The translations under genes and the position numbers were made by a program. A DNA stretch of 64,000 nt from Chondrosia reniformis (lineage: Eukaryota > Porifera > Demospongiae > Chondrillida > Chondrillidae). Below are positions 95 to 63,972 of this stretch, piece by piece (position 1 is the stretch's first letter; each line of letters opens with the position of its first letter). Location of the stretch: contig OX359191.1 in assembly GCA_947172415.1 (NCBI GenBank), forward strand, positions 6,944,001-7,008,000, given 5' to 3'. The notes beneath the pieces were generated by a model. It ran no database searches and was not told the origin of the DNA. It saw only the letters and a program-made list of their open reading frames with translations.

Positions 95-3000
95 CTTGCT
101 TTTGTGGTACACATTAGCTTTACGTTCCTCTGTCAGATGTTGTACTACTTGTAACTGACCTTCCTGACAGGCTAGCAGTAGAGCTGTGAAGCCATCCTAA
201 AGTAAGAAATATGTAAACTCATTGAAATCAGTTACAACACTTCAATCACTGTACTTCAGACAAGTGATACACAGATAGATAGTTCACAATTATCATGTTG
301 TTAAACTACGTACATATTAACATAAACTACATACATTTACATTTAACAAAAATGTTAAACGTCTAACTACATTACATGATCAGCCATGGCATGACCATCA
401 TATCAACTTTGCATGTACTAACAGACTTATTGCTTATTATACGTAGCTTAAATTAATCAACACTTTACAACTATTACATATTAATACTCACATTGCTTTC
501 CTCTTCTAATTTGACAAGATGTGTATCAATTAAGCAACTGATGATGGCTTGTTTACCATACATAGCTGCCTTCATTAGAGGAGTTGTACCTTCCTGTGTA
601 CATAAGAAGGGAAATATTTTAGATTGGAAACTTCAACATACAACAAATTATAGTTAACATCATTTAATTCCAAAGCTGAACACACATTATTGGTACTATT
701 ACAATATACACTTTATCAATTAACATTGTTGCAGATCCTTATACACCTCATTGTACTTTTAATACAATTAGTACATACAACTAGTAGGTATGAGTTTCGT
801 ATTGTTACTATTACAAATACTTAATATGTAATCACACTATTTTAGTTCACCATTCCTTATACAATTACCCCAGTTACCTCACTATAGCAATATAAGAGAC
901 ACTAACTCATTTCTTACCTTAGTACTCCTTTCTTCAGGAGAGAACTTCAGTTCTTCAACAATGTGGCTCACCATTGCAGGATTGTCTTGTTCATTTCTAC
1001 TGGCAAAGTGAATTATACTGTCTCCATATACATCAACATCATGGAGTTTACCAGCTTCTATGAACTTTGGTAGTAGGAACTTCAGTAAATCCACATTGCC
1101 ACTAAAGGCAGACCAGTGTAAGGCATTTCCATCATCCTGGATTAGGAAGCATAAGAGAGAAGCTTAAAGGTTTTTGACAAAGAAATGAGTTAGACATTCA
1201 GAAACACTATACCATACACTTACACTTGTATTGTATGTTGTATTTATGCATGTGAGAACACCATACACTGGATACATATATACTCAACATTAGAAGGATA
1301 TCATGGATTATTTCATGACTATATATATGTTTTCCACTTAGTGACACTGCATTAGTTACCCAAAAATTAGTCGAACTATACATATATACATTTACATGCA
1401 CTAACACTCATCATGAGAAGGATTACAGATAGAGAGTTAATTACACAACTCCAAATGCTAAGTGACCAAAGTCTTATCTTTGTCGGGAGACTGAAGTTAA
1501 ATATCATTGAAAGACAACAATGACTATTAGACAAGTCTATTTTAACGTAGCAGTCACTTTGGCTGTACTCTACTGGTAAGGAAACCTCAATTGTTTTAAC
1601 TGCAATAGTAATTATTGGCAGGTTTGCTACTCAAAATCCATTACATGCTTTACTGATGAGCAAAACAGAATATAGTCTGCATGCATTCGACTGAGTTGTG
1701 TGGTTCAACCTTCTCCCTAAGTAACAAATCTGGTATCTACCAACACAAGTTGTATCCCTTAACACTTACCTACACTATATCTCTATACCCAATAAGTATA
1801 TGTATACTATCCAAACACTTACAGTACAACAATACTTACTTGTTATACAGAGAAGTGTCTTACCTTGTTCTTGTGGTACACGTTAGCTTTACGTTCCTCT
1901 GTCAGATGTTGTACTACTTGTAACTGACCTTCCTGACAGGCTACCAGTAGAGCTGTGTTACCTCTCTAAAGTAAGACACAATGCAAATTAAATTAATCAA
2001 ATTAATACAGTCAATTGTTAAGAACTGTATATGTACATAGATACAAATGTAATAGAAATCATTAATAATGATACAATAATTAGTCACTAAACACTACAAA
2101 TTAATTATCATTGTTAACAGCCATAGACAGCTGTTTCCTTATTAGGACTCATCAGTATGGCATACAATGGAAGTTTGAGTGGCTAGTCTGCTAATAAGTA
2201 CTCTCAAAAGCAAAAAAAGCTTGTGGTTTCCTTATCAGCAGATAAGGTGGCTAGGGGGATACTCTGGTTCCCATCAAGCGTAATTTGCTCATTGCACTCC
2301 TCAGGGGACATGAGTGGGTAGGGGTGATAGTGATGCTTTAGGATCGACGTTAGATCTTAAAGTTCCCCTATTATTTTTCCCTATGGTTTAATTGTTAGTG
2401 ACTCCTGATCAGGTAAATGCTTTAAACTTGCAGTCTTTTCTCATTATATGCACTTTCAGTATATAATTCATTTTATAATCTATAATTTATGAAGATTTTT
2501 CAATTAATAATATATTCAAATTATCTATAATCCATAGTGTTTACAAGTTTCTAATATTTTTACAAAACAACCTATGAGTTATTTATTGTACTACGTATAT
2601 TGGTTAAACTTATATACGTACAAAAATATGGCTAAAGAGTAAAAATTAATATATTTTCCATGTGTACTTTACGTAGCACAATACACTCACTACATCTTCT
2701 TCTTCCACATTATGCCCTGCATCCAACAAGAGCTTCAAGACCTCCAAATCTCCACTTCTACCAGCTTGTAGCAAAGACTATTAGTTTGGGATCAAGTAAA
2801 GAATGATATTTTATTTGAATCATGAATTGAATGTACAAAAATACAATCATGGCTGTTTAGTATGGCCTTTGATAATCCAGTTCCCTCGATATCAGGCTGA
2901 CTTTTCAGGGAAACGGGTCTAAATAGCATAATTTTATACGTGAGAAACCAGCCCTTGATTTACCTTTTGTATATCTACGTATACGAAATTGACAAGTTAA

Positions 3001-6000
3001 TCTAATGAATGTTAGCCGACCTATTGACAAATGATTTTGGTCTGCAAAGTATGCTGATTTAGTATGTGCACGGGAAATGTACCAGTCAGTGATAAAGTAT
3101 TACTTTTAAATTAGTACATGTTTTGTACTAGGAATGAGCGCTTTGTTAGTTTATTTATACAATAATCTTACAATCATGGTTATGTCATAGTGTCAGGGGT
3201 GACATTATATAGACTTTCTTAATCCAGCAGCCTCCTTAATCCAGCAATGTTTGGAGAAACCAATGCAGTCGGCTTGAAAAGTCATGACTGTATTACATAT
3301 AATCAATCAATCACACACCTGGTGAACTATATATATACTATAACAAATGTACACTTTCAATTCCTTATATGGTCAATATTTATTGTAATGGATGGGAATG
3401 GAATAGGAACTGTACATCTGCAAAACCTACTCCTTTCTTCTTCTTTCTGGACAGAGATCCTTCCTTCTTAGTAGCATAGTCCCAAAGTTCCTTCGACTGT
3501 AAAAGTAGCTTTCCAAACTTGTTTGAGACAATTTCAGAGTTAACTGTCACAGCTTTAATCACAGCATCACAAGTATATGTCTCCTTCAGTTCCTAGAAGA
3601 GGTGGAAAAGAAATTAAAATATTCTACTAGCAGGACATAAAGCCTAAATGTACACTTTAAGAAATACATTTATCACATGTTGGTACGTACGTACGTACAT
3701 GCATAAACACATTATTTCTATATAGACTACCTCAATACTGCCTTCTTCTGACTTCAGATTTTTCTTCAGATTTATCATCATTTTCAAATCTGCCAAACCT
3801 TCTGATTCACTCAAACTCTTCATTTTCTCTTCAACTTGAGATAAAATGGCTGCCTTGGGTTCAATTTGCAGCTGGTATTTGTAGAACTTGTCTTTTATCA
3901 AAGAAACCTTTCAAGTAAGATACGTATGTATGTTAAATAAATTCATAAATTACAAATTAGCATTCCAAATATTACATAAATCATTCCACAGAGGAGTGGC
4001 AGTGGTCACCATAGCAACTAGGTATAAGCTATATAATGTCTACATGCATATACAACACTATATATAAATAAGTATCAGGTTGTATATATACTATATCCAC
4101 AGACCCAAAGAATACAATTTATACATTGTGTAGTCACTACTTACAACATCCTGCTCTGATATAGTTTGCTTTTCTTCCTCTTTCTCATGACTGGATTTCT
4201 CTTCAAGTGGCCTCTTCAGTGACTCCACCTTCTCAACCAAGTCTACATCCACCAACTACAGACAAGTTAATACTTACATTGGTCTATACTTGTGATACTC
4301 GTACATCAAATGTAACAACATCTGTATACATACACAGTACATGGATGATACAGACTTGTGTGTGTGAGATGTTACATTGGTGAAGAATACAATCATTTAG
4401 AATGAGTGTGCTACTGTCAATCTCACCTCTTCCAACTGCTTCACTTCTCCTCTACATTTCAACAACTTTTCCCTTGTTCTCTTCAACTCGTTCTGTGACT
4501 GACTCAGTTCTTCTTCTTTTGCTCTCAGTTTAGTCTTTAGAGCATGAAGCTCCACCATTGTCATGTGGTGCATTCCCTCCATACTCTTCATCTCTGCCTT
4601 ATGTTTCTCTCTGGACTGAGTTGGAGTTTTCTGAGTAAAGGAAATCACATACAACAAAACCATACGACCAACAACTATGCAACTGAACTACAACTACTAT
4701 GATAAGACCTTAATTAGGATAGTCAGTATTATACAATATCAGGTTTATAATGCATGCAGTTGATAAGTATAAAAATAATGTACTGGCAAAAGCAACAGAC
4801 TAAATTGCTATAACTAATAATTCCTTGTATACCATATACAGTGAACATCACTGCTAAGACTATCACTGGGACAGAATCAAAGTGGTCCATATACTGATTT
4901 GGTGGGATAAACTACCCAATATAATATGCAAGTGGGAGGCAAGAGATACAAATATGGCACAGTCATTAATTAGCACAAATTTAATATTATGTTAATTGTC
5001 TTACACACTGTAACGATGTACTCACTGAAGGAACATGCAGAGTTCCAAGTTGAACATCAATGGCAAAGTAGCCAAACACGATTGCCTTCTCAACTCCAAA
5101 CTCTCTCAACTGACACACATGTGACAGGAGGATTGGAGCAATCATCACCGCAGCCTCCTTCATCAGTCGGAACATCACCATGGTGCAGCCTTCAGCAAAT
5201 CCCTCAAAGAGAACTCGATCGATACCCAGGATTTCTATCAAGTAGAACTGCAAGCGAAACAGCTCAGCCAACATATACCGACCTGGTTCCTGGTTGACTT
5301 TCAATCCCAAGTGGGCATGGTTGTCATCAGCAGGAAGCTCTGCTCTTTCCCTTTGAAACTTTCCAAGTGCTTCTGTGGCAAAGTTGATAACATCAAAGTT
5401 GTGGTCAGAAATGGATTCCTTGAGAGCTTCTGTTTCTCCTATAGCCTTTGCAGCATCAGCAATAAGTCGCACATCCAAGGGACTGCTCCACAAGTAGATG
5501 TAGTCGAGGATATCATCTTCTGATAATGGAATGTCTACTGGAATCTGGCTGCTGAAATGACCTCTAATTCCATTGCGGACTTCACGACGAAGGCTTTTCA
5601 ACTGCTTGTCAGAGAGGTCCGACAGACACCTTCCCAATTTCCCATTTATTGAAGTGTACTTTTCTTTAAGCTCAAATGCTCCTGGATATTTTAAGAGTTC
5701 CCTTCGATCCTCAAAGGCTTTAATGACAGGTTTCCAGGTGTCAATCTCTGAGATGTTGGAAAGTGGAGGTGTTGACTGAGCTACTGTAGCTGATGGAGGC
5801 GGGATTGGCTTGGGAGGTGTGGCATCTGAAGGGAGAAGGGCACTATTATAAAGCATACAATGCATACAAAGATATATTTGCAAGAATGTTGAGTTGGGTC
5901 CATATCATAACAATTACGTAACTTTCAGATTATTTCATGTATATATCTTCCTGGTAAATAACTCACTTGCTAAATATTTATCAATAAGTTCGGCTAGTTC

Positions 6001-6532
6001 TTTATGGTTACCACGAGAAGTGTCCTCCTTAAGTGCAGTAGACAGATGTTTTAACTTCTTCTCATTCGGATCAACAACTAAAATCTCATAGAGAGCTCTG
6101 TTAGCTGTTCCTAATTCTGGTACCAGCGAACCGACTCGCTCCAGTTCGCTAGTAGTGATAGCACCGAGTTGATGAAGACTAGTTGACACTCTACGAACAT
6201 CACAGTTGTTTACCAACTGATCGTGTAGTTGCTGGATGAAAGAGCGAATTTGGTCTGTAAGTAGCTGCGACGATTGCTCTACATATGTACAAAAAGTGTA
6301 AGTTTCAAAAGTTGAGCGAATGCACCCATACAACTGCTGTAAAACTAAAAATTACGTACGTAACGTAATTAGGATATATAGAATTACTTGTACGTACTAG
6401 CACATCTGGAAAAGGTACTACATTATTCAGGGATATCATAATCGGTTGTACGGACTCTAAAACTCATTGATACAGAGACATGATGATCTCTAGACTCACT
6501 AGCTACCTACCTGCAGACATTTTGTCAGCCAT
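95..6532 (-). CDS. CARD-like / module X / coiled-coil / ankyrin-repeat protein, gene 1 (3' end beyond window)
   Basis: Probable cytoplasmic signalling or adaptor protein. Minus-strand exons: 6511-6532, 5967-6278, 5026-5825, 4427-4630, 4145-4255, 3731-3907, 3431-3592, 2691-2777, 1864-1965, 918-1136, 492-593, 95-196 (2400 nt, 800 codons), then off the left edge. All have GT-AG borders and joining phases, with no stop seen. The start is the ATG at 6532 in a 22-nt exon. Exon 2 encodes a CARD-like helical domain. Exon 3 (800 nt) encodes a Pro-rich linker and module X, unrecognised. Exons 4-7 are charged and coiled-coil-like. Exons from 2691-2777 downward are ankyrin repeats (ALLLACQ, ALHWSAFSGNVDLLKFLL). 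The 918-1136 exon is one codon longer than its paralogues. Domain order is seen; the immune role is inferred from the family type. CARD versus another death fold is not settled. Confidence 0.8.
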
Positions 6533-7474: not shown

Positions 7475-7682
7475 AGAGATAAAGAAAGCATATAGGATTC
7501 TTAACTAAAAGCTGAAAAGCATTAGTTACCTTAAATATGTACTATGACTATTCTCTATAAGTGTAAATGCATGTATTGTGGAAACAGAAAAAATAGCCTA
7601 GACTTACATGTATGTAGTTTCAACTTGTAGAGTTGGATTTTACAATGAGCAGTTCCTGTTCCCTTTTCCCTACTCTGATCAG

Positions 7683-10600
7683 GTGTACAATGAGACAATC
7701 AGAGATTTGCTGCTCCCATCAGGGCCCCTGAAAATGAGGGACGACAGAGGAACCTTGGTAGTCAATGGGCTCTCATTACATAAGGTACACACTTATAGTA
7801 GTGATCGATTGCACACAGATACGTATGTATGCTACCTCCTCTCCCCCTCCTCCACCCCCAGCCTCACGATGCTAATGAGCTCCTGGGCATGCTGGAGCAT
7901 GGCAATAAGAACAGGACACAACACCCAACTAAAGCCAACGCAACCTCCTCCCGATCACATGCTGTGTTCCAAGTGCACATCCACCAGAAGCCTCGTACAG
8001 CTGGTCTGAGCACTGAAGTGAGAACTGCAAAGCTGTCCCTGATTGATCTTGCTGGATCAGAGAGGGCTACAGTCACATCTAACAAGGGAGCTCACATGAG
8101 AGAAGGAGCCAATATTAAAAGATCTTTGCTGGCACTGGGAAATTGTATCAATGCACTGGCAAACAAAAAGGTGGGCATTCTCAAGAAGATGTAGCAATCA
8201 TTTGAGTGATATTTGTATTTAATTTCTTTGCAGAAAAAACTGGTTATGTACCTTACAGAGAAAGTAAATTAACCAGACTCCTGAAGGATTCACTAGGAGG
8301 ATCATGTCAAATTGTCATGATTGCCAATATTAGGTATGTAATCGTACGTACGTGCTAATACATACACAGGTACGTTGGTATTTGAGAATTCAAATGTACA
8401 TAATATGACATGCACTTTTAAATTATATTATATTTCAACTATTGCACATTTAATCAGACATGAATTGTTTTGTACTGTTTATCAATGTTGCTTTATTTGT
8501 GTTTAATGTAGTCCGTCAGCACTGACCTTTGATGATACTTATAATACTCTGAAATATGCAGACAGAGCAAAACAGATCAAGTCACAAGTAAGAAATCTTA
8601 ACTGTGTACATCAACACAACATTGTGCATGTCAATATTTCTCCTTCCATGTTCTTCTACTCTACCTCCCTCTACCTCTCAATTGGTTTGGAATGTGGTGA
8701 GCTTGGACTATCACCTGTCAAAGTACAAGGAGATTGTGGAGGACCTTCAGAAGGAGATCATTCTTCTCAAATCAAAGCTGGCAAGTCAAAGTGGAGGCAG
8801 CCAGATTAAAGGCATTGATATCAGATATGTATGGTTGCCATGGCAATGTACGCAAGGAGCTGGCAGAGGCAGAGTGTAGTGGTGAACTGTTGAATGCAAA
8901 AAGAAAGAGAAGAGAGATTCTGTATAGAAGATGTGAAGCATTTAATACATCACAGGAAAGAAGAGATAATGTACGTATGTATGTGTTTAAAGCTACATAA
9001 AATGTACGTACGTACCTACGTATGTATGTGTATATCCTGTGTATATACATACATATTTCGTTACATTTAAAGCTACATAATTTTTTTAGCTATATACAAA
9101 CTATCAACTGTTAGCTATGAACTACATATGTACATATATACGTATATAATTGTTTAAATTTACATTTAAGTATACATGTGGCCTGTTTTACTTGTACATA
9201 TGTATATAGATGAAGTGTCGAATAGTTGATCTAGAGGAAAAGATAAGAGCCATTGCGCAGAAGGAAGATCTTAGTAAACATCTCCATGACAACCAGGATG
9301 AAATTTATAAGATGCAAAATGAAATTAAAGAAAGTCTGGCTAAGCGATTTGATTCCTTTGCACTGAGTGAGTATGTATCCATGGTAACTGAAGCTGAGAA
9401 GCATCGCATGGAAGGAGCTCACAGTAGAGTTCAAGTGAGATCTCTGAGAAAACTGGTGAAGCAGCTGCAGCAAGATATGGACAGGAGCAACAGGTTAGCT
9501 TGGAGATACAGTATAGTGTAGTTATTAACCTTACTATATGTATGCATGTACATACCAGTATGTGTGTAGGGGCACACAGTATACAGCTAAATAATGTGAT
9601 GTTTCCATTTCTCTTGCAGATTACTAGCTTGCACAATTGGGTTTATCCAGGATGTGGAACCGTGCTTCAGTCAGAACACCATTCTCCTCAACAAGTATCG
9701 TGCTCTGGTGAGGCAGCTTCAAAGTGAGAAGGGAGTAGCATGGGCAGATGAGGACCAGGAGGCCCATGAGAGCACGTTTAGATCATCAGTCCAGTTGGAT
9801 TCCCTTCCTGCACTCTCAAAGACCACATCTCCCACATCACCTGCAACTGGTGACTCAAAGACCACTCCCCCTACATCACCTGCAGCTGGTGACTCAAAGA
9901 GCACTCCCCCTACATCACCCAGTAATTCAGAGGGTTCTCCCCTTTCTTCACCTAATTTACATTTGAAGAGTACAGCTGTAAGAAGCAATACCACTCCATA
10001 TCCACTAGCTTCAAAGCAGGCTGTACCTCCTAGTGAAATGTCAACCATAGCTCCTCCTAGCTCAGTGTCAAATCTACCGCAACCTCCTCCTAGCTCAGTG
10101 TCAAATCTACCACAACCTCCTACTAGTATTATGCCACCTCCCTCCAGCAGTGTCCTCTGTACACCAGTAAGGGTGACAGCACTCACCTCTTTCAGCTCCT
10201 TCACGCCCTCTCCAGCTGTGGCACGCCTCCTCAGCTCAATGAAGACCATGGGCCACTCCTCCTTACGTAAGAAGATCCCTGAAGCAGTTAGACCTGTCAT
10301 CCAACCATTTGAGGAGAAGCAGAGAAGAGATGGCATCACACCAATTGGAAGCAGAAGTAACACTCAAAGGAAGACCACATTACGCAACAGTGAACGCTCT
10401 TTGAAGTCAAACACAGTCTCCAGTCCTGATGATCTACCAAATAGTAGAATGGACTGTGAATGAACACAAAAGTGGAGTTCTAAAGAGGTCATATGACACT
10501 CATTCAGCTAGAAGGACACCCAAGAATCACCAAAAACTTTTAAAGGTCTTAGGTATGGATTATTTAATTGTCATCTTAATGTTGTCAGTACCTTTTTCAC

Positions 10601-11671: not shown

Positions 11672-11713
11672 ATAGGAGATGTTACATATATATACATACA
11701 AAAATGAATTTTA

Positions 11714-12336: not shown

Positions 12337-15300
12337 TCATTCAAACCCTCCTTCAGAAATAAGGTACTTCACTACATCTTTGTGTCCTTTCCTCCTAGCC
12401 AGTGTCAAGCAGTCCTCTCCATATGTATTAACATTAAACTTCCTTCTTCCAAATAAGGGCAATAGGTACTTGACAACTTGGAGATGGCCATTAAGACAGG
12501 CCCAGTGTAGAGCACTGTTTCCATACTACAAGATAATCACAATTATGAATATAAACATGAAAACAAACATATACAGTATGTTTTGGGTCAGTTGTCCAGA
12601 CAGGACTTGCAATCGATAATCGGTAAAAAGGTTTATCGCTGTATGGTTATGTTGTTCTAGTGTGAAAGTTTGTTCAAATGGTAGTCATGAGTGCTAAACA
12701 ATTACCAATTTCAATGTCCGGTAGGGACAACCGACCCAAAAAGTACTGTATAAGTAGAGATATGGTGCACTTGCAGTTAATATGTAAATCAGGACCAGTA
12801 TATCTACTTCAAATTGTTCACTAGACTATGGGGACGGCATATACTACTAATCATCCAAAATGGAGTGTAATTTACATGTTTACATAATATTGCTGATCAT
12901 GTTTATCTACAGCCAATGGGATGTATCTGAGAAGGTCACATGACTGACACTTTTTTCTTAGTTAATTCAGCCAAATAAGAGTTGGAACAAACAGGTGACC
13001 TTCCAATCAAGTCAATAGTGGCACTGGTGCCTTTGAATCAGCACAAATGTTTAGGTTGGTAGATATTGTGCTCTTCCACCTGTGGTCTAACTGTTACATA
13101 ATAATCAATACATTGCTATCAATGCAAAGTACCACTCAAACTGTAAACCAAACAAGCAATATTCCACCCCACAGTAACAACAGATCTACTTCAGAGAAAT
13201 GACAAATATTAATATTAATTTTTATATATGTGCTTTTGAAGCATCCAGCATAAAGAATAGCATGTGATGTATCCCATGATTATTATTGAAATTAAAGATT
13301 AAGAAAGTCCTTTGCAAAGTCCCATTAGGCTACACCCTTCTGAACTAAATAAACAAGTATTTTGAGTTTAAAAACTCGTGGGGCTGCCGCCCCCCCCGAA
13401 TTAACTCAAACTACTTGGCTGCATCATTGGGATTTAATATATATATTCGTAATACTAATGATTGAGGACGCTTAAGTGTCTTGAACTTTATAAATAACGA
13501 TGGAAAAGCTTCGTTAACTAAAGCTTCCTGAACGCCGCCATTTGCAAAAATGATGTATCGACGTATAAAATAAGTGTTATAATAGTTGCGTATGAACCTG
13601 TATTATATATATATATATCTTTCCATAACATGAAGCCGTACAATGTAATCGGCAAATGAAAACAATATAAGGGGCTGCCACAGGCAGCCCCTAAAAAACT
13701 CATATATAGAATTAACAAAAACTAAAGATACATTTTGACTCAGTTCTACAAATATCTGTTACCTAATCAAACTATAATAAATTGATTCTCTCTTATAAAT
13801 CATATGTGACCTTCCACAGTAAACAGGGTAATAATAAGTAATAAGTTATAAAATTATAAAGATACTTTTGCAGCGTCAACACAGTGTTCACAATTAATAT
13901 CTACCAACACAAGTTGAATCACTTAGCTCTTAACTTTATACTTAATGACTATGGTACGTATATGTACTATCCAACACTGACTACAACAACACTTACTTGT
14001 TATACAGGATATCTTACCTTGTTCTTGTGGTACACATTAGGTTTACGTTCCTCTGTCAGATGTTGTACAACTTCTAACTGACCTTCCAGACAGGCTACCA
14101 GTAGAGCTGTGTTACCATTCTAAAGTAAGAAATATGTAAACTCATTGAAATCAGTTACAACACTTCAATCACTGTATCTCAGACAAGTGATACACAGATA
14201 GATAGTTCACAATTATCATGTTGTTAAACTACGTACATATTAACATAAACTACTTACATTTACATTTAACAAAAATGTTAAACGTCTAACTACATTACAT
14301 GATCAACCATGGCATAACCATAATATCAACTTTGCATGTACTCACAGACTTATTGCTTATTATACATAGCTTAAATTAATCAACACTTTACAACTATTAC
14401 ATATTAATACTCACATTGCTTTCCTCTTCTAATTTGACACGATGTCTATCAATTAAGCAACTGATGATGGCTTGTTTACCATACTTAGCTGCCTTCATTA
14501 GAGGAGTTGCACCATCCTGTGTACATAAGAAGGGAAATATTTGAGATTGGAAACTTCAACATCCAACAAGTTATAGTTAACATCATTTAATTCCAAAGCC
14601 AAACACACATTATTGGTACTATTACAATATACACTTTATCAATTACCATTGTTGCAGATCCTTATACACCTCATTGTACTTCAATGTAATACAATTAGTA
14701 CATACAACTAGCAGGTATGAGTTTCGTATTGTTACTATTACGTACAAATACTTAATATGTAATCACACGATTTTAGTTCACCATTCCTTATACAATTACC
14801 CCAGTTACCTCACTATAGCAATATAAGAGACACTAACTCATTTCTTACCTTATTCCTTTCTTCAGGAGAGAACTTCAGTTCTTCAACAATGTGGCTCACC
14901 ATTGCAGGATTGTCTTGTTCATTTCTACTGGCATCGTGAATTAGACTGTTTCCATATACATCAACATCATGGAGTTTACCAGCTTCTATGAACTTTGGTA
15001 GTAGGAACTTCAGTAAATCCACATTGCCACTAAAGGCAGACCAGTGTAAGGCATTTCCATCATACTGGATTAGGAAGCACAAGACGGGAACTTAAAGGTT
15101 TTTGACGAAGAAGTGATATAGACATTCAGAAACATACTATATATACTATACACTTGCACTATATCAACTCCTAAACAGTATTTTTTACATGTAAATTAGT
15201 GAGACTTTGTGTCCAAACACTGAACAAAAATATACTCAACATTACAGGGATATCATGAATACTTGATTAACAATGGCCCTTATGACAGGCAAAGTGTAGA

Positions 15301-18300
15301 GCACTGTTTCCATACTACAAGATACACATAAGTAATTATGGATTTCAACATGAAAACAAACATACAAGTGTAGCAATGGTACACTTGTAGTTAATATGTA
15401 AATCAGGACCAGTATATCTACTTCAAATTGTTCACTAGACTATGGGGATGGCATATACTACTAATCATCCAAAATGGAGTGGAATTTATATGTTTACATA
15501 ATATTGCTGATCATGTGACCTTCCATCAAGTCAATAGTGGCACTGGTGCCTTTGAATCAGCACAAGTGTTTAGGTTGGTAGACGTTGTGCTCTACCACCT
15601 GTGGTCTAAATATTACATAATAATCAATACATTGCTATCAATGCAAATGTGTCACTCAAACTGTAAACCAGTCAATCAATATTCCACCCCACACTAACAA
15701 CAGATCTACTTCAGAGAAATGACAAATATTGTGCTTTTGAAGCATCCAGTAGAGCAGAGCATTTGAAATTAAAGATTAAGAAAGTCCTTTGCAAAGTCCC
15801 ATCAGGCTACACCCTTCTGAACTAAATAAATAAACTCTTATATATAATTAACAAAAACTAAAAGATGCATTAATATTTGACTAAGTTCTACAAATGTGTT
15901 ACCTAATTAAACTATAAAAATTGATTTTCTCTTATAAATCATCATATGTGACCTTCCACAGTAAACAGGGTAATCCTGTAAGTTATATAATACGTACAAA
16001 TATACTATAAAGTCCTGAGTGGCTAGGAAGGCTCATGCTGAATTTGATTTACTTGTAAATGCTAGCTGACATGAAAATGGTTCTCTTAAGGATACAAGAA
16101 CTACTATATAAGTATAAAAAGCAGACAGATAGTGATAGGTCACGTGAAATACAATAAAGCATGAAAAAGGGGGAAAATAGGAAGCACAAGTCAACAATAC
16201 ATTGTACCTTAATCTGTAAAGTGACAAGTTGGCAAAATCAAATAATAATAAGTTAAGTGTGATACCAGTCCAATAGGGTGGTATAGACTCCTGGCATTGA
16301 GCCCCTTCCCCTATTGAGAGGGGCCTGCTCATGTTGGATATGACAGGACTCCAACAGGCAATGGGTCTGTGTGTGTGTGGAGGTGGGCATCTATCACTTT
16401 GGACAAGTCCATCTGGTGATGTGAGACAAACACCTGTTCAACAAGTAATGAGGACAACACACCCTCATTCCTGAGTGCTCTCCGATGTTCTCCAAGGCGA
16501 TGATCTAATGACCTGCCAGTCTGCCCAATGTAGGATTGTTGACACTCATTGCAAGGTATGCTGTAGATCACCTCTTTCCTTTTTCCCTCTGGAACAGGGT
16601 CCTTCGGATTGACAAGTTCTTGCCTCAGAGTTCAGAAGGGACTGAACATGACATTGATGGCCAGGGGGTCAGTATCTGCGAATGGACTGTGATAGCCCAT
16701 GGATATAAGGGATGGTCACTGAGGCCCGTGCTGTCTGTTCCTCAGCATGGCTGTTGTATCTCACGTGACCTATCACTATATGTTTGCCTTTTGTACTTAT
16801 ACAGTAGATGAAGGCGGCCGTAGGTTGTCGAATCGTCTAAGAGAACCATTTTCATGTCGGCTAGCGTTTACAAGTAAATCGAATTCAGAAAGATACTTTT
16901 GCAGCGTCAACATAGTTCACAATTAATATCTACTAACATAAGTTGAATAGCTAAACTCTTACCTATACTATCTCTTTATACCTTATGACTATATATGGTA
17001 TATGTACTATCCAACACTGACTTGTTATACAGAGAAGTGTCTTACCTTGTTCTTGTGGTACACATTAGCTTTACGTTCCTCTGTCAGATGTTGTACTACT
17101 TGTAACTGACCATATTGACAGGCTAGCAGTAGAGCTGTGTTACCATTCTAAAGTAAGAAATATGTAAACTCATTAAAATCAGTTATAGCACTTCAATCAT
17201 TGAAATTCATACAAGTGCTATACTGCTATATAGTTCACAATATTATGCTGTTAAAACATAAAGTACTTAAATTTATATATAAAAATGTTAAAAGTCACAA
17301 GTAACTAATTACATGATCAGCCATGGCCCTTGCTATCTTTCAAGTGCTACATACAAACCTATATATTGCTAGCTGCTATTTCTATGATATGTTACACCAA
17401 CTAACAGAGGGTATATCAACTTCACATGTACTAGTAAGATTCAAGGGCAGGTATTTAATGCATATAGCTTTAATAAATACAACTATTACATATTAATACT
17501 CACATTGCTTTCCTCTTCTAATTTGACACGATGTGTATCAATTAAGCAACTGATGATGGCTTGCTTACCATATATAGCTGCCTTCATTAGAGGAGTTACA
17601 CCTTCCTGTGTACATAAGAAGGGAAATATTTGAGATTGGAAACTTCAACATACAACAAGTTATAGCCAACATTATTTAATTCCAAAGCCGAATACACATT
17701 CATTTATTGTTTACAATATACACTTTATTGATATAAACATTGTTACAGATCCTTACTTGTACTTCTAAATACAATTAGTACATACAAATAGTATAGTAAT
17801 GAGTTTCGTTGCACTAAGAGATGATTGGCATGTGAAGATTTAAAGGAACATTGAAATTTAAAAGTCATAATCTTTTACAGTATGTTTAACTCCTATACTT
17901 GAAATAACCCTCCCACCTTTAACTCAAAATAATGAAGCGTCTAAGTATGATTTAACAATTATAGCTTCGAAATGTCAGGGACTGCAATAATGACCAATGA
18001 GAAATTAGAGGATCCCTTTGTCGACTTGGATGAAGACAAATCCACAATGGACAAGGACCAACATGCATGTAATTAACTCAGTTGTCATTTGTTATGTCTC
18101 ACTCTTCTTTCTTAGTTGTTTTTAAATAAAATATTCTATCAGTGATTATCGTCTAATACAGTAGCAATGATAACCTCAAATAAACCTACAAGTTCTAACA
18201 AAGTCAAGATTAATAATACCCGCACGTTCTATATAAGGATATATGTTATACATACGTATGTACTAGTGGATATAGCAAATACTTAATATGTAATCACATT

Positions 18301-24003: not shown

Positions 24004-24344
24004 TTTGTCAGCCGCGGCCACACCCATAAAAATACTATTATATGATTAGCTATAGCGATAGCTACTCAATTTAACGTCTTATATGTATATCAGTAAGTTA
24101 ACCCTCCTACTCACATAGATATACCACACTATAGTTAAATATAAAACACAAGTTACTGTGGGAATGGCAGTGCTTGTTATAAGTGACTAGCACATCTGGA
24201 AAATGTACTATTACATTATTCAGGGACATCATAATCAGTTGTGATGCAATCATGTCTATTTACCTTATAAGTAGCAGATAGTAAAATCATTGTCTATTCT
24301 ACTAGACAAAAAGATAATTAATGATGTAACTTTATCATTCTTTC

Positions 24345-51752: not shown

Positions 51753-52550
51753 ACAACCTCCTACTAGTATTATGCCACCTCCCTCCAGCGATGTCCTCTG
51801 TACACCAGTAAGGGTGACAGCACTCACCTCTTTCAGCTCCTTCACGCCCTCTCCAGCTGTGGCACGCCTCCTCAGCTCAATGAAGACCATGGGCCACTCC
51901 TCCTTACGTAAGAAGGTCCCTGAAGCAGTTAGACCTGTCATCCAACCATTTGAGGAGAGGCAGAGAAGAGATGGCATCACACCGGTACCAATTGGAAGCA
52001 GAAGTAACACTCAAAGGAAGACCACATTATGCAACAGTGAACACTCTTTGAAGTCAAACACAGTCTCCAGTCCTGATGATCTACCAAATAGTAGAATGGA
52101 CCTTAGAAGCATGCCCATCCCAAAGCTGGCATTTGAGGACAACTTTTGCTCTCCAGATCCTCCTCCTTGTAAATCAGGGGACCCACTGAATGAGACATTT
52201 ACTGTGAATGAACACAACAGTGGAGTTCTAAAGAGGTCACATGACACTCATTCAGCTAGAAGAACACCCAAGAAACTTTTAAAGGTCTTAGGTATGGATT
52301 ATTTAATTGTCATTTTAATGTTGTCAGTATCTTTTTCACCAGAGCTTCGATCAGAATTTACCATCTGCCATTTATACATATTAATAAATTATACATAGTT
52401 ACCAATACATTATAATTAGATTATGTAGATATAATATGTGTTACTCTTATATGCATATGTAAAAATACCACTTTCCTACATGTTATGCCTTACCAATAAA
52501 TTAAAAAGCCTAGCCTGTTTAGAGCTTTGGATGAGGATACAGGAGACTTC

Positions 52551-54148: not shown

Positions 54149-57100
54149 TTAAATGTTCCCTCTTGATCCAAACCCTCCTTCAGAAATAAGGTACTTCACT
54201 ACATGTTTGTGTCCTTTCCTCCTAGCCACTGTCAAGCAGTCCTCTCCACTTGTATTAACATCAAACTTCCTTCTTCCAAATAAGGGCAATAAGTACTTGA
54301 TAACTTGGAGATGGCCCTTAAGACAGGCCAAGTGTAGAGCACTGTATCCATACTACAAGATAATCATAATTACGAATATAAACATGAAAACAAACATATA
54401 CAGTATGTTTTGGGTCAGTTGTCCAGACAGGACTTGCAATCGATAATCGGTAAAAAGGTTATCGCTGCATGGTTATGTCATTCTAGTGGGAAAGTTTGTT
54501 CAAATGATAGTCGTGAGTGCTAACTAATTACCTATTTCAATGTCCGGTTTGGACAACCGACCCAAAAAGTACTGTATAAGTATAGATATGGTACACTTGT
54601 AGTTAATATGTAAATCAACATTATCTACTTCAAATTGTTCACTAGACTATGGGGACAGCATATACTACTAATCATCCAAAATGGAGTGGAATTTACTTGT
54701 TTACATAATATTGCTGATCATGTGACCTCCAGCCAATGGGATCCATCTGAGAAGGTCACATGACTGACACGTTTTCTTAGTTAATTCAGCCAAATAAGAG
54801 TTGGAACAAACAGGCGACCTTCCAATCAGGTCAAGGAATACCTCATCCACCTGTATGTAGTGATTATTATAGAGTGACCTAAACATTTGTGCTGATTCAA
54901 AGGCACCAGTGCCACTATTCAGTACCTATATATAGGAAATTATTTTAGCATATCAGTGAGAAGACCTAACTTAAAGACAGTAGTCACAGAGACAAGCTAG
55001 TATTAGAAACTAGTGTTTAGTTGTAAAATTGTGTCACTGCAAGCTTTGTAAGATTATGAATTTAAAATACGTATTCCCTTATCAAAATAATGTATTTCAA
55101 TTTTGTATCATCTCTGTGATGTATATAGTTCAAATGTTGTTGCTCTACTAATTCTGGTCTAACTATTACATAATAATCAATAATAATATTTTATGTGCTT
55201 TTGAAGCATCCATTTGATTATAATTGAAATTAAAGATTAAGAAAGTCCTTTGCAAAGTCCCATCAGGCTACACCCTTCTGAACTAAATAAATAAACAGTC
55301 ATATAGAATTAACGAAAACTAAAAGATTTTCAAATTGATTTGTTCTACAAATGTCTATTATCTAATCAAATCAAAAAAATGACTTTCTCTTATAAATCAT
55401 CATATGTGACCTTCCACAGTAATCCTGTAAGTTATATAATTATACAAAGATACTTTTGCAGCGTCAATACAGCATTCACAATTAATATCTACCAACACAA
55501 GTTGAATAGCTTAATTCTTACCTATGTATGTACACTATTTCTTTATACTCAATGACTGTGGTATATGTACTATCCAACACTGACTACAACAGCACTTACT
55601 TGTTATACAGAGAAGTGTCTTACCTTGTTCTTGTGGTACACATTAGCTTTACGTTCCTCTGTCAGATGTTGTACTACTTGTAACTGACCATATTGACAGG
55701 CTAGCAGTAGAGCTGTGGTACCATACTAAAGTAAGAAATATGTAAATTCATTGAAATCAGTTATAACACTTCAATCACTGCACTTCAGACAAGTGCTAAA
55801 CAGATAGATACGTAGTTCACAATATTATACTGTTAAACTACATATTAACATAAACTACTTAAATTTACATATAACATAAATGCTTAAAGTCATAAGTAAC
55901 TACATTACATGATCAGTCATGGCATGATCATTTATGGGATATCTTACAAATGCTACATACAAACTTTTATATCATCACTAGTTGCTATTTCTATGATATA
56001 TTACACCAAATAACAGTGTCAACCATATGATATATCAACTTCAAATGTACAGTTCTATATACTAAAAGATTTATTTAATGTATAGCTTTAATTAATCAAC
56101 ACTTTTACAAGTTAATACTTACATTGCTTTCCTCTTCTAAATTAACACCATATCTATCAATTAAGCAAATGATGATGGTTTGTTTACCATACATAGCTGC
56201 CTTCATTAGAGGAGTCACACCTTCCTGTGTACATAAGAAGGGAAATATTTGAGATTGGAAACTTCAACGTATAACAAGTTATAGTTAACATCATTTATTC
56301 CAAACCAAACACATTATTATATACAATATACACTTTATAGGTACAAACATTGTTACAAATCCTTATACACTATTGTACTTCTAAAATTATAATTAGTACA
56401 TATAACTAGTACATACAACTAGTACATACAACTAGAACTGTTTATGAGCATTTTGTATCTCACTCTTCTTTCTTAGTTGTTTTCATAATAAAATATTCTA
56501 TCAGTGATTATCATCTAATACAGATACCCTCAAATAAACCTACAAGTTCTCACAAAGTCAATTAATAATACCAGCGGATCCTATTTTTAAGAATATATAT
56601 ATATACGTATGTACTGGTGGATATAGCAAATACTTAACATGTAATCACACTATTGTAGTTCACCATTCCTTATACAATTACCCCAGTTACCTCACTATAG
56701 CAATATAAGAGACACTAACTCATTTCTTACCTTATTCCTTTCTTCAGGAGAGAACTTCAGTTCTTCAACAATGAGGCTCACCATTACAGGATTGTCTTGT
56801 ATATTTGTACTGGCAAAGTGAATTAGACTGTCTCCATATACTTCAACATCCTGGAATTTACCAGCTTCTATGAACTTTGGTAGTAGGAACTCCAGCAAAT
56901 CCACATTGCCACTAAAGGCAGACCAGTGTAAGGCATTTACATTATCCTGGATTAGGAAGCATAAGACAGGAGCTTAAAGGTTTTTGATAAAGACGAGATA
57001 TAGACATTTAGAAACATACTACAGTAGAATCTCATTATAACGAAATTGCTTATAGTGAATGTCTCAGTATAGTGAAGTACTTTGTTAGCCCCAGCAAAAG

Positions 57101-60100
57101 TTGTATACTATTATATTCATTCAATATAGTATATATTCAATATAAGGAACTAATTTGGTCCCCTTTGAGCTTCACTATAATGAGATTCCACTGTATATAC
57201 CATACACTTGCACTATATCAACTCCTAAACAGTATGTTTTATATGCAAATTAGTGAGAATTTGTGTCCAAACACTGGACACTAATATACTCAACATTACA
57301 GGGATATCATGGATTACTTGAATAACAATGTAAAGATTTAGTGAAATAGGATTAGCTATATAAAAAGATTAGTGAGTCATTTCTATACAATGTTTTAACA
57401 AACACATCCTTGTTTATCTATACTTTCAAGGGGACTAGTGGTATATGCCAGATAAATGGAATATTTGATTACAATTATGTCAATTATGCAATGTCTGTTC
57501 AAAGGCTAAGTGACAAAAGTGGGAGATTAAGTAAATATTTAAAGAAGATAACACAGTCTTCTGTGGAACTTTGGAGGATTTGCCATCTCGGGTGATATAC
57601 TAGTTTGCCATTTGCTGAGACATTGGTCTCACAAGTACTAAGATAAGACTTCATTGCTAAACAATTCCTCATCTACTTATCAGAGAGTATTGTAATACCA
57701 ATATTAACTAATACATACTTTAAAGAACCGGACTTAAAGCAATAATGATCTATACATAAATTAACAAGCTCCCTGTCACTAGTAAAGCTAGGTTGCCTGT
57801 AGTGATGACAGATCAGCTCACTCTCCCCCAGCTGCTGTGTTCTAAGAGGTGAGTAGACTAGCACCTCTGACTACAGAGCAGTTAAGGTTTTGTTTACTGT
57901 AATTACTTAAAAGGAACTTGTAGTTACTCTCTACAGTTGTAGTTAATATACGTACACATTAGAGGCAACTTTAACTTACACTTGTAGAATAAATAATTAT
58001 GTTGTATAAATCTAATGTCACGTTCAGGACACATATAGTATATACTATATACACTTATGGAAAATGCATTTTTCACTTCAAATCATTATATAGTCTTTAT
58101 TATAACCATTTCCACTGTAACAGTTATTTTGATTGCCTTCATGTGATAAATCCCTTTTCAAAAACAGAGACTACCGTAAATATGCCATGTTGTTCAATAA
58201 TATACAGAACCATAAATTATATACTGTATTGCCATTGCGTAGACTATAATGAAGTCATTGATATACAGAGCTAACAGAAGTACAAACTGATCACATGAAT
58301 TAACTGTATGGTTAATAGCTACAGTGTTTAGAAGGACATTAACATGTGTTTAGGTTGTGAAAATTAGGTAATCAAAGAGAATTAATTGTTTATTTACTAG
58401 TTCTCTATATCTAATAAGTAAACATACTATTCATACACTTCCTATAATACCACACTTAACTGACTAGAACTATATAGAATGATATAACTGATACTGTAGA
58501 ATTGAAATCACTGTCCAACTAATGATAATTAAATGTACATTTTAAACACACCAGTTACACAATTAATTGCAACCAATGCCAATTATAATTGTAATCAATA
58601 TAACTCACAATATCCACCAACACAAGTTGAATCCCTTAACTCTTACCTACACTATCTTTCATACCTAATGACTACTATCCAAACACTTGCTACAACAATA
58701 CTTACTTGTTATACAGAGAAGTGTCTTACCTTGTTCTTGTGGTACACATTAGCTTTACGTTCCACTGTCAGATGTTGTACTACTTGTAACTGACCTTCCA
58801 GACAGGCTAGCAGTAGAGCTGTGGTACCATCCTAAAGTAAGAAATATGTAAACTCATTAAAATCAGTTATAAACCTACAATCATTGAAATTCATACAAGT
58901 GCTATACTGATATATAGTTCACAATATTATGTTGTTAAAACATAAAGTACTTAAATTTATATATAAAAATGTTAAAATCACAAGTAACTACATTACATGA
59001 TCAGCCATGGCCCTCGCTATCTTTCAAGTGCTACATACAAACTTTTATATCATCACTAGTTGATATTTCTATGATATGTTACACCAACTAACAGAGTCAA
59101 CCGTATGGTATATCAACTTCACATGTACTAGTAAGATTCAAGGGCAGTTATTTAATGTATATAGCTTTAATAAATACAACTATTACATATTAATACTCAC
59201 ATTGCTTTCCTCTTCTAATTTGACACAATGTGTATCAATTAAGCAACTAATGATGGCTTGCTTACCATACATGGCTGCCTTCATTAGAGGAGTTGCACCT
59301 CCCTGTGTACATAAGAAGGGAAATATTTGAGATTGGAAACTTCAACATACAACAAGTTATAGCTAACATCATTTAATTCCAAAGCCAAACACACATTCAT
59401 TTATTGTTTACAATATACACTTTATTGATATAAACATTGTTACAGATCCTTATACACACCATTGTACTTCTAAAATTATAACTAGTACTGTACATACAAT
59501 TAGTACATACAACTAGTACATACAACTAGTACATACAACTAGTACATACAACTAGTACATACAACTAGTACATACAACTAGTACATACAACTAGTACATA
59601 CAACTAGTACATACAACTAGTACATGCAAATAGTAGTTATGAGTTTTGTTGCATTAAGAGATGATTGGCATGTAAAGATTTAAAGGAACATTGAAATTTA
59701 AAACTCGTAATCTTTTACAGTATGTTTAACTCCTATACTTGAAATAACCCCCCACCTTTAACTCAAAATAATGAAGCGTCTAAGTATGATTTAACAATTA
59801 TAGCTTCGAAATGTCAGGGACTGGAATAATGACCAATGAGAAATTAGAGGATCCCTTTGCTGACTTGGATGAAGACAAATCCACAATGGACAAGGACCAA
59901 CATGCATGTAATTAACTTAGTTATCATTTGTTATGTCTCACTCTTCTTTCTTAGTTGTTTTTATAATAAAATATTCTATCAGTGATTATCATCTAATACA
60001 GAAGCAATGATAACCTCAAATAAACCTACAAGTTCTAACAAAGTCAAGATTAAAAATACCCATACATCCTATATAAGTATATATGTTATACATATGTATG

Positions 60101-63100
60101 TACTGGTGGATGTAGCAAATACTTAACATGTAATCACACTACTGTAGTTTACCATTCCTTATACAATTACCCCAGTTACCTCACTATAGCAATATAAGAG
60201 ACACTAACTCATTTCTTACCTTATTCCTTTCTTCAGGAGAGAACTTCAGTTCTTCAACAATGTGGCTCACCATTGCAGGATTGTCTTGTTCATTTCTACT
60301 GGCATAGTGAATTATACTGTCTCCATATACATCAACATCATGGAGTTTACCAGCTTCTATGAACTTTGGTAGTAGGAACTTCAGTAAATCCACATTGCCA
60401 CTACAGGCAGACCAGTGTAAGGCATTTCCATCATACTGGATTAGGAAGCATAAGACAGGAGCTTAAAGGTTTTTGACAAAGAAGTGATAAAGACATTCAG
60501 AAACATATACTATATACTATACACTTGCACTATACCAACTCCTAAACAGTATTTTTTTACATGTAAATTAGGGAGAATTTGTGTCCAAACACTGGACACT
60601 AATATACTCAACGTTACAGGGATATCATGGATACTTGATTAACAATGGCCCTTATGACAGGCAAAGTGTGGAGCACTGTTTCCATACTACAAGATACACA
60701 TACGTAATTATGGATTTCAACATGAAAACAAACATACAAGTGTAGCAATGGTACACTTGTAGTTAATATGTAAATCAGCACTAGTATCTAATTCAAATTG
60801 TTCACTAGACTATGGGGATGGCATATACTACTAATCATCCAAAATGGAGTGGAATTTATATGTTTACATAATATTGCTGATCATGTGACCTTCTGATCAA
60901 GTCAATAGTGGCACTGGTGCCTTTGAATCAGCACAAATGTTTAGGTTGGTAGACGTTGTGCTCTACCACCTGTGGTCCAAATATTACATAATAATCAATA
61001 CATTGCTATCAATGCAAATGTGCCACTCAAACTGTAAACCAATCAATCAATATTCCACCCCATACTAACAACAAATCTACTTCAGAGAAATGACATATAT
61101 TGTACTTTTGAAGAAAATTATTTGAACTATACATATATACAGTTACATGCACTAACACTCATCATGAAAAAGATTACAGAGAGAGAGTTAATGACACAAC
61201 TCCAAATGCTAAGTGACCAAAGTCTTATCTTTGTCGGGAGACTGAAGTTAAGTATCATTGAAAGACAACAAATGACAAGTCTATTTTAATGTAGCAGTCA
61301 CTTTACTGGTACTCTACTGGTAAGGAAACCTCAATTGTTTAACTGCAATAGTAATTATTGGCAGGTTTGCTTCTCAAAATCCATTACATGCTTTATTGAT
61401 GAGCAAAACAGAATATAGTCTGCATGCATTCAACTGAGTTGTGTGCCTCAACCTTCTCCCTAAGTAACAAATCTGGTATCTACCAACACAAGTTGTATCC
61501 CTTAACACTTACCTACACTGTATCTCTATACCCAATAAGTATATGTATACTATCCTTAAAGTATAAGTATATGTATACTATCCGTATACTGGATGGATGG
61601 ATGGATGGATATTGATGCTTTAGGATTGACGTTCCCCTATTATTTTTCCCTAGGGTTTAGATCTTAAAGTTCCCCTATTATTATCCCCTAGGGTTTAGAT
61701 CTTAAAGTTCCCCTATTATTTTTCCCTAGGGTTTAGATCTTAAAGTTCCCCTATTATTTTCCCCTAGGGTTTAGATCTTAAAGTTCCCCTATTATTTTCC
61801 CCTAGGGTTTAGATCTTAAAGTTCCCCTATTATTTTCCCCTAGGGTTTAGATCTTAAAGTTCCCATATTATTTTTCCCTAGGGTTTAGATCTTAAAGTTC
61901 CCCTATTATTTTTCCCTAGGGTTTAGATCTTAAAGTTCCCCTATTATTTTTCCCTAGGGTTTAAGTGTTAGTGACTCCTGATCAGGTAAATGCTTTTAAA
62001 CTTGCAGTCTTTTCTCATTATATGCACTTTCAGTATGATTCAGTTTATAATCTAATATATAATGTCAGAATTAATGAAGATATTTCAATTAATAATAATA
62101 TTCAAATTATCTTTAATCCATAGTGTTTACAAGTTTCAAATATTTTTATAAAACAACCTACGTATGAGTTATTTATTGTAAAATATATGGGTTAAACTTA
62201 TACATATATACGTATATAGTACAATAAATATAGCTAAAGAGTAGAAATTAATATTATTTCCATGTGTACTTTACGTAGCACAATACACTCACGGCATCTT
62301 CTTCTTCCACATTATGCCCTGCATCCAACAAGAGCTTCAAGACCTCCATATCTCCACTTCTACCAGCTTGTAGCAAAGACTATTAGTTTGGGATCAAATA
62401 AAGAATGATATTTTATTTGAATCATGCATTGAATGTTGATTATACATAATATAAGTCTTATATACAATATGTATGCATATGAATGTACACAAATACAGTC
62501 ATGGCTGTTTAGTATGGCCTTTGATAATCCAGTTCCCTCGATATCAGGATGACTTTTCAGGGAAACAGGTCTTAATAGTATAATTATTTTGTACATGAGA
62601 AACCAGCCCTTAGTTTACCTTTTGTATATCTACATATACGAATCAATCACACATATGGTGATCTGTATATATAAAAAATGTACACTTTCAATTCCTTATA
62701 TGGTCAATATTTATTGTAATGGATGGGAATGGAATAAGAACTGTACATCTGCAAAACCTACTCCTTTCTTCTTCTTTCTGGACAGAGATCTTTCCTTCTT
62801 TGTAGCATAGTCCCAAAGTTCCTTCAACTGTAAATGTAGCTTTCCAAACATGTTTGAGACAATTTCAGAGTTAACTCTCACAGCTTTAATCACAGCATCA
62901 CAAGTATATGTCTCCTTCAGTTCCTAGAAGAGGTGGAAAAGAAATTAAAATATTCTACTAGCAGGACACAAAGCCTAAATGTACAGTTTTAGAAATGCAT
63001 TTGTCACATGTTGGTATATTGTATGCATAAACGCATTATTTCTATATAGACTACCTCAATACTGCCTTCTTCTGACTTCAGACTTTTCTTCAGATTAATC

Positions 63101-63972
63101 ATCATTTTCAAATCTGCCAAATCTTCTGATTCACTCAAACTCTTCATTTTCTCTTCTACTTGAGATAAAATGGCTGCCTTGGGTTCAATTTGCAGCTGGT
63201 ATTTGTAGAACTTGTCTTTTATCAAAGAAACCTTTCAAGTAAAGATATGTACGTTAAGTAAATTCATAAATTACAAATTAGCATTCCAAATATTATGTAA
63301 ATCATTCGGTTATTATTCACATAGGTAACAGAGGAGTGGCAGTGGTCACCATAGCAACTAGGTATAAGCTATATATATAATGTCTACATGCACATACAAC
63401 ACTATATAAATAAGTATCAGGTTGTATATATACTATATCCACAGACCCAAAGAATACAATTTGTACATTGTGTAGTCACTACTTACAACATCCTCCTCTA
63501 ATATAGTTTGCTTTTCTTCCTCTTTCTCACGACTGGATTTCTCTTCAAGTTGCCTCTTCAGTGACTCCACCTTCTCAACCAAGTCTACATCCACCAACTA
63601 CAGACAAGTTAATACTTACATTGGTCTATACTTGTGATACTTGTACATCAAATGTAACAACATCTGTATACATACACAGTACATGGATGATACAAACTTG
63701 TGCTAGTGAGATGTTACATTGGTGAAGAATACAATCATTTAGAATGAGTGTGCTACTGTCAATCTCACCTCTTCCAACTGCTTCACTTCTCCTCTACATT
63801 TCAACAACTTTTCCCTTGTTCTCTTCAACTCGTTCTGTGACTGACTCAGTTCTTCTTCTTTGGCTCTCAGTTTAGTCTTTAGAGCATGAAGCTCCACCAT
63901 TGTCATGTGGTGCATTCCCTCCATACTCTTCATCTCTGCCTTATGTTTCTCTCTGGAATGACTTGGAGTTTT
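54149..63972 (-). CDS. CARD/ankyrin family gene 4 (5' end beyond window)
   Basis: Minus-strand exons: 63769-63972, 63487-63597, 63055-63231, 62762-62923, 62293-62379, 60220-60435, 59201-59302, 58730-58831, 56731-56946, 56123-56224, 55624-55725, 54149-54352 (1785 nt, 594 codons plus stop). This covers the coiled-coil region, the entry ankyrin exon, two cassettes and the terminal exon. The CARD and module X exons lie beyond the right edge and are assumed from the paralogues. The second ankyrin exon (1864-1965 in gene 1) is deleted at a GGAT microsatellite near 61590; because it is 102 nt and phase 0 the frame survives. No stops seen. Confidence 0.8.
54401..54574. mobile_element. TA-flanked MITE, copy in gene 4
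   Basis: Third copy of the 12574-12748 element, at the same intron position. Confidence 0.75.
57022..57193. mobile_element. 172-bp TA-flanked MITE (pogo-like), copy 2
   Basis: Same element as 32317-32488, in the same place relative to the neighbouring ankyrin exon, so it was copied with the cassette rather than inserted twice. Confidence 0.8.
59483..59633. repeat. 13-bp minisatellite (TAGTACATACAAC), about 11-12 copies
   Basis: Near-perfect tandem array in a gene 4 intron. Shorter versions lie at about 39470-39545 and 56393-56435 in the paralogous introns. Confidence 0.85.
60643..60686 (-). pseudogene. Relic of the terminal ankyrin exon in gene 4
   Basis: Same truncated exon relic as 15272-15314, again followed by spacer block type I. 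Confidence 0.7.
61594..61612. repeat. (GGAT)n at a deletion junction
   Basis: Four to five GGAT units where units 1-3 have an ankyrin exon and its flanks. Marks the deletion breakpoint in gene 4. Confidence 0.7.
61650..61965. repeat. 38-bp tandem repeat, about 8 copies
   Basis: Unit contains TTAGATCTTAAAGTTCCCCT and ATTATTTTTCCCTAGGGT. Present once in units 1-3 (for example 2350-2392), amplified only in gene 4 next to the exon deletion. Confidence 0.9.

Follow-up and report, generated by a model that had tools for sequence, protein, structure and literature searches.

A tandem array of CARD/TRADD-N-like/ankyrin genes with position-specific repeat variation in the sponge Chondrosia reniformis

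Sponges house crowded communities of microbes and distinguish self from non-self although they lack adaptive immunity. A candidate set of proteins for these tasks is raised by 64,000 bases of chromosome 3 (C3) of Chondrosia reniformis (C3:6944001-7008000, here called the window), in which an earlier note had described four same-strand copies of a gene with a CARD-like death fold, a domain termed module X, a coiled coil and an ankyrin array. What are these genes, and do they recognize anything? The death-fold ankyrin family holds and is named here CARD/TRADD-N-like/ankyrin. The earlier reading as an innate-immune or cell-death adaptor and recognition family is supported as an interpretation: the array probably encodes recognition proteins in which an ankyrin sensor feeds a CARD-driven death or immune signal. 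Open exon models, the CARD fold, the tandem array, the number of ankyrin modules, position-specific variation and related CARDs beside NACHT matches form the computed basis.

The genome searched comprises 117,379,552 bases in 15 contigs, with 9,415,654 bases in C3; the available part of the genome paper gives 117.37 Mb in 14 chromosomes plus the mitochondrion, and 9.42 Mb for chromosome 3 (PMC12181767). Copies A, B, C, and D share one exon order, all on the minus strand, and with copy A peptides as query this order is found on that strand at four more places across 104 kb of contiguous sequence. The fourfold layout thus stands with the correction that A and D run past the window edges and that three CARD exons (A, B, and C) lie inside, that of D lying to the right. 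The limits first proposed for the family, 95..63972, fit an ankyrin exon of copy A (196-95) and a coiled-coil exon of copy D (63972-63769). Splice joints were inferred from sequence, not from transcripts, and every joint in A-D is GT-AG. Copy A runs from 6532 to -1527 (13 exons, 862 amino acids) and ends left of the window. Copies B (24027-12337, 16 exons, 1005 amino acids) and C (48673-29200, 19 exons, 1143 amino acids) are open throughout, as had been claimed for at least two copies over 16-19 exons; copy D (65840-54149, 15 exons, 968 amino acids) is open too, without one ankyrin exon and with its CARD and module-X exons at 65636-64431, right of the window. First exons like that of copy A precede the CARD exon in B-E, exon 1 of D starting at a downstream ATG with an unchanged donor.

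Introns 1 and 2 split codons, and all exons from the coiled-coil exon onward are multiples of three; therefore, exon gain or loss keeps the frame. The ankyrin part consists of exon A1, n modules of A2-A3-A4, a further A2 and a last exon, with n being 1, 2, and 3 in copies A, B, and C, respectively. The variable repeat number noted earlier is confirmed in the form of whole three-exon modules (102 + 216 or 219 + 102 nucleotides), giving about 8, 12, and 16 repeats when one is counted per short exon and two per 216- or 189-base exon. The ankyrin part of copy D resembles that of B minus the first A2, of which 34 intron bases (76%, E 0.003) are a possible remnant. Numbered by window position, the features of the splice models are:

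6511..6532, minus strand: copy A exon 1, with start codon and phase 1 end
5967..6278, minus strand: copy A CARD exon, type I
5026..5825, minus strand: copy A module X, with a death-fold-like helical bundle (residues ~46-148) and a TRADD-N-like domain (~165-252)
3431..4630, minus strand: copy A, four spacer exons with coiled coil (4630-4427, 4255-4145, 3907-3731, 3592-3431)
95..2777, minus strand: copy A ankyrin exons A1 2777-2691, A2 1965-1864, A3 1136-918, A4 593-492, A2 196-95
-1339 to -1527, minus strand: copy A last exon, left of the window
23994..24027, minus strand: copy B exon 1
23423..23734, minus strand: copy B CARD exon, type I, 92% identical to A
22269..23068, minus strand: copy B module X, 96% identical to A
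20765..21886, minus strand: copy B coiled-coil and spacer exons (21886-21683, 21599-21489, 21234-21058, 20926-20765)
12337..20052, minus strand: copy B ankyrin part, with A1 20052-19966; module 1, A2 19263-19162, A3 18595-18380, A4 17605-17504; module 2, A2 17147-17046, A3 15064-14849, A4 14516-14415; final A2 14119-14018 and last exon 12525-12337
48664..48673, minus strand: copy C exon 1
48245..48559, minus strand: copy C CARD exon, type II, 62% identical to A over the exon
47267..48066, minus strand: copy C module X, 83% identical to A
45668..46789, minus strand: copy C coiled-coil and spacer exons (46789-46586, 46502-46392, 46136-45960, 45829-45668)
29200..44961, minus strand: copy C ankyrin exons, with A1 44961-44875; A2-A3-A4 modules 44123..39189, 37136..34317 and 34120..31596; final A2 30920-30819 and last exon 29403-29200
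54149..63972, minus strand: copy D within the window, with coiled-coil and spacer exons 63972-63769, 63597-63487, 63231-63055, 62923-62762, then ankyrin exons 62379-62293 (with no clean first A2 after it), 60435-60220, 59302-59201, 58831-58730, 56946-56731, 56224-56123, 55725-55624, 54352-54149

The profile search that had been proposed as a check succeeded for the ankyrin part, where the A3 exon of copy A exceeds the Pfam cut-off (Ank_4 4.7e-8, 33.5 bits vs. 22.7). Pfam CARD, Death, and DED gave no match in the window (one of these scans scored 150 of 220 candidates), and Pfam CARD matches two of 32 family members (best 2.7e-4). By computation, the head exon encodes a six-helix death fold with the kinked helix 1 of a CARD. 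A PDB profile search with the CARD family returned CARD8 alone (best E 0.012). When the single CARD of copy B was compared with PDB sequences, the top match was a designed TIM barrel (E 2.8e-4, with no stretch passing alone), followed by a protein designed on template 1cy5, matching over full length (E 0.042). Profile comparison of the CARD to DED found nothing. With the CARD alignment as query, 48 homologous proteins were obtained at E 0.001 from ENA contigs, some of which may be the other haplotype; relatives with 22-26% identity lie on a 10.53 Mb contig that may belong to another species. Related CARDs are also encoded directly upstream of NACHT matches on the same strand, mainly on C7.

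In the window genes, module X is placed between the CARD and the ankyrin tail. Its second half has a predicted RRM-like beta-alpha-beta-beta-alpha-beta fold, and a tiny residue followed by Ser or Cys at the beta2-beta3 turn is found strictly in 17 of 22 sequences (GC in seven, GS in four, SS in six), with NS in three and no such pair in two; four of the 26 rows end before the turn and were left out. The profile PF13820 had no match in the genome, and control genomes likewise gave none; against single sequences it matches weakly (1/26 at E 0.042 and, in another set, 1/11 at E 0.021). A PDB sequence search with module X gave no meaningful match, profile comparisons to DED and to CARD found nothing, and residues 8-380 of copy B retrieved no homologous protein at E 0.001. 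The module-X alignment as query found 16 at E 0.01, again on ENA contigs and in part perhaps from the other haplotype. A TRADD-N identity is strongly suggested for the second half, and the first half is possibly a second death-fold bundle, for which DED or PYD is the candidate kind. The first spacer exon of copy A has weak coiled-coil-type Pfam matches below the cut-off.

Module X also occurs with other partners. At 17 loci outside the array, CARD query matches lie upstream in six (L006, L007, L010, L012, L013, and L024). The Pfam domains of the tails are kinase and Kelch (L005), Kelch (L010), AIG1 (L016 and L017), and ankyrin (L019); L006 continues with RING, zf-TRAF, and MATH domains, and L008 and L024 have Roc/COR matches below the cut-off. 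At L014, a predicted gene combines, as judged by eye, a death-domain-like segment, module X, and a caspase-like segment; none of 19 Peptidase_C14 matches falls there, and no scan was aimed at this segment.

Is the ankyrin tail built to bind? The first 13 A2 copies differ mainly at positions 1, 3, 11, and 12. Six test positions (1, 3, 11, 12, 24, and 31) were fixed before the new copies were read; they follow what we take to be DARPin (designed ankyrin repeat protein) numbering, position 2 of which was left out. DARPin libraries randomize surface positions, six per internal repeat, according to the accessible parts of PMC6590788, PMC8683736, and PMC4132713. The 44 new copies are reported apart (two of 59 matches, both on C12, were left out). 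All 44 are open with AG and GT ends, their proteins are all distinct, and 19 of 34 positions are invariant. Mean entropy is 1.45 at the six test positions vs. 0.22 at the rest (permutation p 0.0008). Unexpectedly, no variation occurs at positions 24 and 31, and positions 8 and 33 are variable. The varying residues sit on the usual ankyrin binding face, at the tip of the beta-hairpin and the end of the inner helix, and differ between most copies. At the four variable positions, the proportion of nonsynonymous differences (pN) is 0.400 and that of synonymous differences (pS) 0.145, compared to 0.038 and 0.053 at the remaining 30; bootstrapping over copies gives 0.185-0.318 for pN minus pS at the four codons, and 0.133-0.307 for the 31 C3 copies alone. 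Array position was rejected as the source of these differences: among the first 13 copies, first A2 exons are not alike from gene to gene, and neither are last A2 exons.

The A4 exons give a divided answer. All 21 new copies (from 33 matches, three off C3 being unused) are open, and variability is again higher at these four positions (entropy 1.54 vs. 0.28, p 0.0005), with pN about equal to pS (0.288 and 0.297; bootstrap -0.079 to 0.061). In ten A3 exons, a set without the longer form of copy A, the broken one of copy E and 20 more, positions 1 and 3 are most variable and 11 and 12 vary little. The A4 ratio would be expected if the genes were signalling adaptors with a housekeeping partner, whose ankyrin differences are drift at exposed positions under relaxed constraint, and if unequal crossing over had multiplied an unstable unit of two genes. 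The duplicated unit indeed includes a kinesin gene (see below) and not the ankyrin gene alone, unequal exchange can yield changes in module number, the helical half of module X is fast as well, and the exon scaffold is homogenized, third positions of conserved codons differing by 0.041 on average between C3 A2 copies and flanking introns by 0.17-0.27. This explanation is nevertheless rather unlikely, being opposed by the A2 binding face, where pN exceeds both pS and the intron differences, and by all 65 new A2 and A4 exons being open with intact splice ends. When all 57 A2 copies are pooled, all four combinations occur at 73 of 120 pairs of common sites, and the four variable residues form 45 different combinations. 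It seems that exchange keeps the exons uniform while the face positions are pushed to diverge.

The heads have a different history. The CARDs of A, B, and D are of one type (type I) and those of C and E of the other (type II). Between types, synonymous divergence (dS) is 1.1-1.2 in the CARD exon, which is near saturation, vs. 0.14-0.20 in the TRADD-N part, 0.06-0.19 in the helical half, and 0.03-0.09 in the first coiled-coil exon; within a type, it reaches 0.30 in the TRADD-N part (A-D and B-D). Given this high CARD and low body divergence, the genes are mosaics of two old heads on homogenized bodies. The ratio of nonsynonymous to synonymous divergence (dN/dS) is below 0.5 in 9/10 pairs for the CARD, 9/10 for the TRADD-N part, and 8/10 for the first coiled-coil exon, vs. 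1/10 for the helical half of module X, in which C-D (1.55) and C-E (1.39) are above 1; spacer exon E6 exceeds 1 in two of ten pairs. Therefore, the ankyrin tail is not the sole fast part, and the helical half (residues ~1-160, e.g., window 47585-48064) may be diversifying too.

The tandem expansion proposed from the window goes beyond it. A genome-wide count, also suggested earlier, gave 48 module-X matches, and the C3 array (6.949-7.247 Mb) accounts for 17. Part of the array might consist of decaying duplicates with few expressed members, as the A3 exon of copy E, a copy beyond the right window edge, is frameshifted, one of the 17 array matches carries a TGA and two are partial, a copy on C9 carries stops, and a retroelement reading frame lies in an intron of copy C. 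Such decay is very improbable, since 14 of the 17 are near full length and open and, taking the CARD, TRADD-N, and coiled-coil blocks together, 26 of 30 pairs have a dN/dS below 0.5. A false duplication of haplotypes is unlikely as the origin of the array because the copies lie in tandem, their proteins differ by 4-38% depending on the module, and haplotypic duplications were removed according to the genome paper (PMC12181767). The 59 A2 matches comprise 44 on C3, 12 on C11, and three on C12. At C11:5449850-5494713, a second ankyrin cluster has at least 12 A2 and eight A3 exons, and the genome-wide search found no module-X match near it; the same ankyrin modules may be joined to another head there.

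How might such a protein work? The order of CARD, TRADD-N, coiled coil, and diversified ankyrin face suggests a sensor acting through a hinge on an assembly head. The protein is presumably cytosolic and begins at its N terminus with a CARD, followed by what may be a second death-fold bundle, the TRADD-N-like RRM-type domain, a coiled-coil spacer, and ankyrin repeats. The ankyrin solenoid would be the sensor, its scaffold nearly fixed and its binding-face residues variable. Target binding would release or cluster the molecules via the TRADD-N hinge and the coiled coil, whereupon the CARDs could pair with one another or with NACHT-protein CARDs and trigger death or inflammatory signalling. Alternatively, the variable faces might not sense microbes but mark or read individual identity and set off rejection or cell death between colonies. 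A tandem array, fixed scaffold, variable face, and death-fold head would suit this too, and cell-death allo-incompatibility is named for sponges in the accessible text of PMC8195603. We consider this allorecognition role improbable: inspection of the models by eye shows neither a signal peptide nor a membrane segment (no dedicated tool was used), and an intracellular protein would need a second component. Within the preferred reading as recognition proteins, a bolder proposal, held tentatively and at somewhat less than even chances, is a germline library of intracellular binders whose fixed ankyrin scaffold is spread as exons inside and among genes and held uniform by exchange, with diversifying selection mainly on the binding face, and whose two ancient CARD types link the same sensors to two different death or immune outputs shared with NACHT receptors. 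A death-signal head joined to a tail with codon-by-codon variable residues offers a direct handle on what is recognized, and the locus allows one to ask how fast the face changes between individuals and how an animal compares with the repeat-diversification scheme of fungal NOD-like receptors (NLRs).

The duplicated units examined also hold a plus-strand kinesin-8-like gene, which adds to the architecture first described. Its nearest solved relative is KIF18A (2.2e-36), and the gene's tail carries a short repeat of Pro, Ser, and Thr that has grown longer in the copy at ~27219-27795.

7602..10463, plus strand: kinesin-8-like gene between A and B (exonic open reading frames), Pfam Kinesin 2.5e-33, not part of the ankyrin gene
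~25092-27795, plus strand: kinesin-8-like copy, duplicated with the units
49454-52398, plus strand: kinesin-8-like copy, duplicated with the units

At the left end of the array (window -19999 to -4618; L001 and L002), a kinesin copy lies without an upstream CARD-ankyrin partner in the sequence examined. A long terminal repeat-type retroelement reading frame (Gag, protease, reverse transcriptase; 40684-42897, plus strand) lies in the copy C intron 44022-40332, and the wider spacing at copy C may be partly because of it. A short reading frame in a copy B intron (16329-16631, minus strand) may be akin to the GIY-YIG endonuclease of a retroelement.

By titles and the beginnings of abstracts, no prior report of this array was found in the open-access literature. 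The closest known proteins are those of the NCOA6-clade TRADD-N expansion of Amphimedon, described in the accessible text of Kaur et al. (2021, PMC8195603) as having one to three Death-like domains, TRADD-N, and a variable, often fast-evolving tail, among which ankyrin is one of the commonest and kinase and MATH occur too. Chondrosia shares the Death-like head, a TRADD-N-like domain, and the ankyrin tail, and kinase and MATH tails occur at L005 and L006. The accessible text shows none of the other features of the Chondrosia genes: a tight tandem array with an intervening kinesin gene, a coiled-coil block, whole-module changes of ankyrin length, two CARD types, and position-specific repeat variation. 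The Chondrosia domain may be of the NCOA6 or the DEDD2 type. TRADD-N has been proposed to keep its neighbours inactive until a signal arrives (PMC8195603).

The C7 NACHT genes of the same sponge likewise have a related CARD upstream, with NACHT in the place that module X takes in the array. TRADD and the array proteins both couple a TRADD-N-like domain to a death fold. To our knowledge, TRADD has no ankyrin repeats. Its death domain, in contrast, is C-terminal, and its TRADD-N binds the MATH domain of TRAF2, as stated in the part of PMC8195603 available; L006, with module X, RING, zf-TRAF, and MATH in one gene, recalls this TRADD-TRAF2 pair.

In fungal NLRs, the ANK, TPR, and WD repeats are highly conserved and change in number, and in the ankyrin repeats positive selection falls on concave-face residues of the beta-hairpin and inner helix (Dyrka et al. 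2014, PMC4986451, accessible text). Near-identical repeats, changes in repeat number, and diversification at beta-hairpin and inner-helix positions are shared by the Chondrosia array. Fungal proteins have a NACHT or NB-ARC centre, whereas the 101 NACHT matches scored out of 139 candidates include none in the array, NB-ARC not being searched for. Membership in the NLRs was rejected on these scored matches and on the gene models, which leave no stretch for a NACHT. The likeness is one of working, not of descent: the array genes look like a fungal-NLR-like scheme of repeat diversification set on an animal TRADD-N protein. As CARD/TRADD-N-like/ankyrin proteins they belong to an already known kind; most worth following are the repeat variation at specific positions and the presence of two CARD types.
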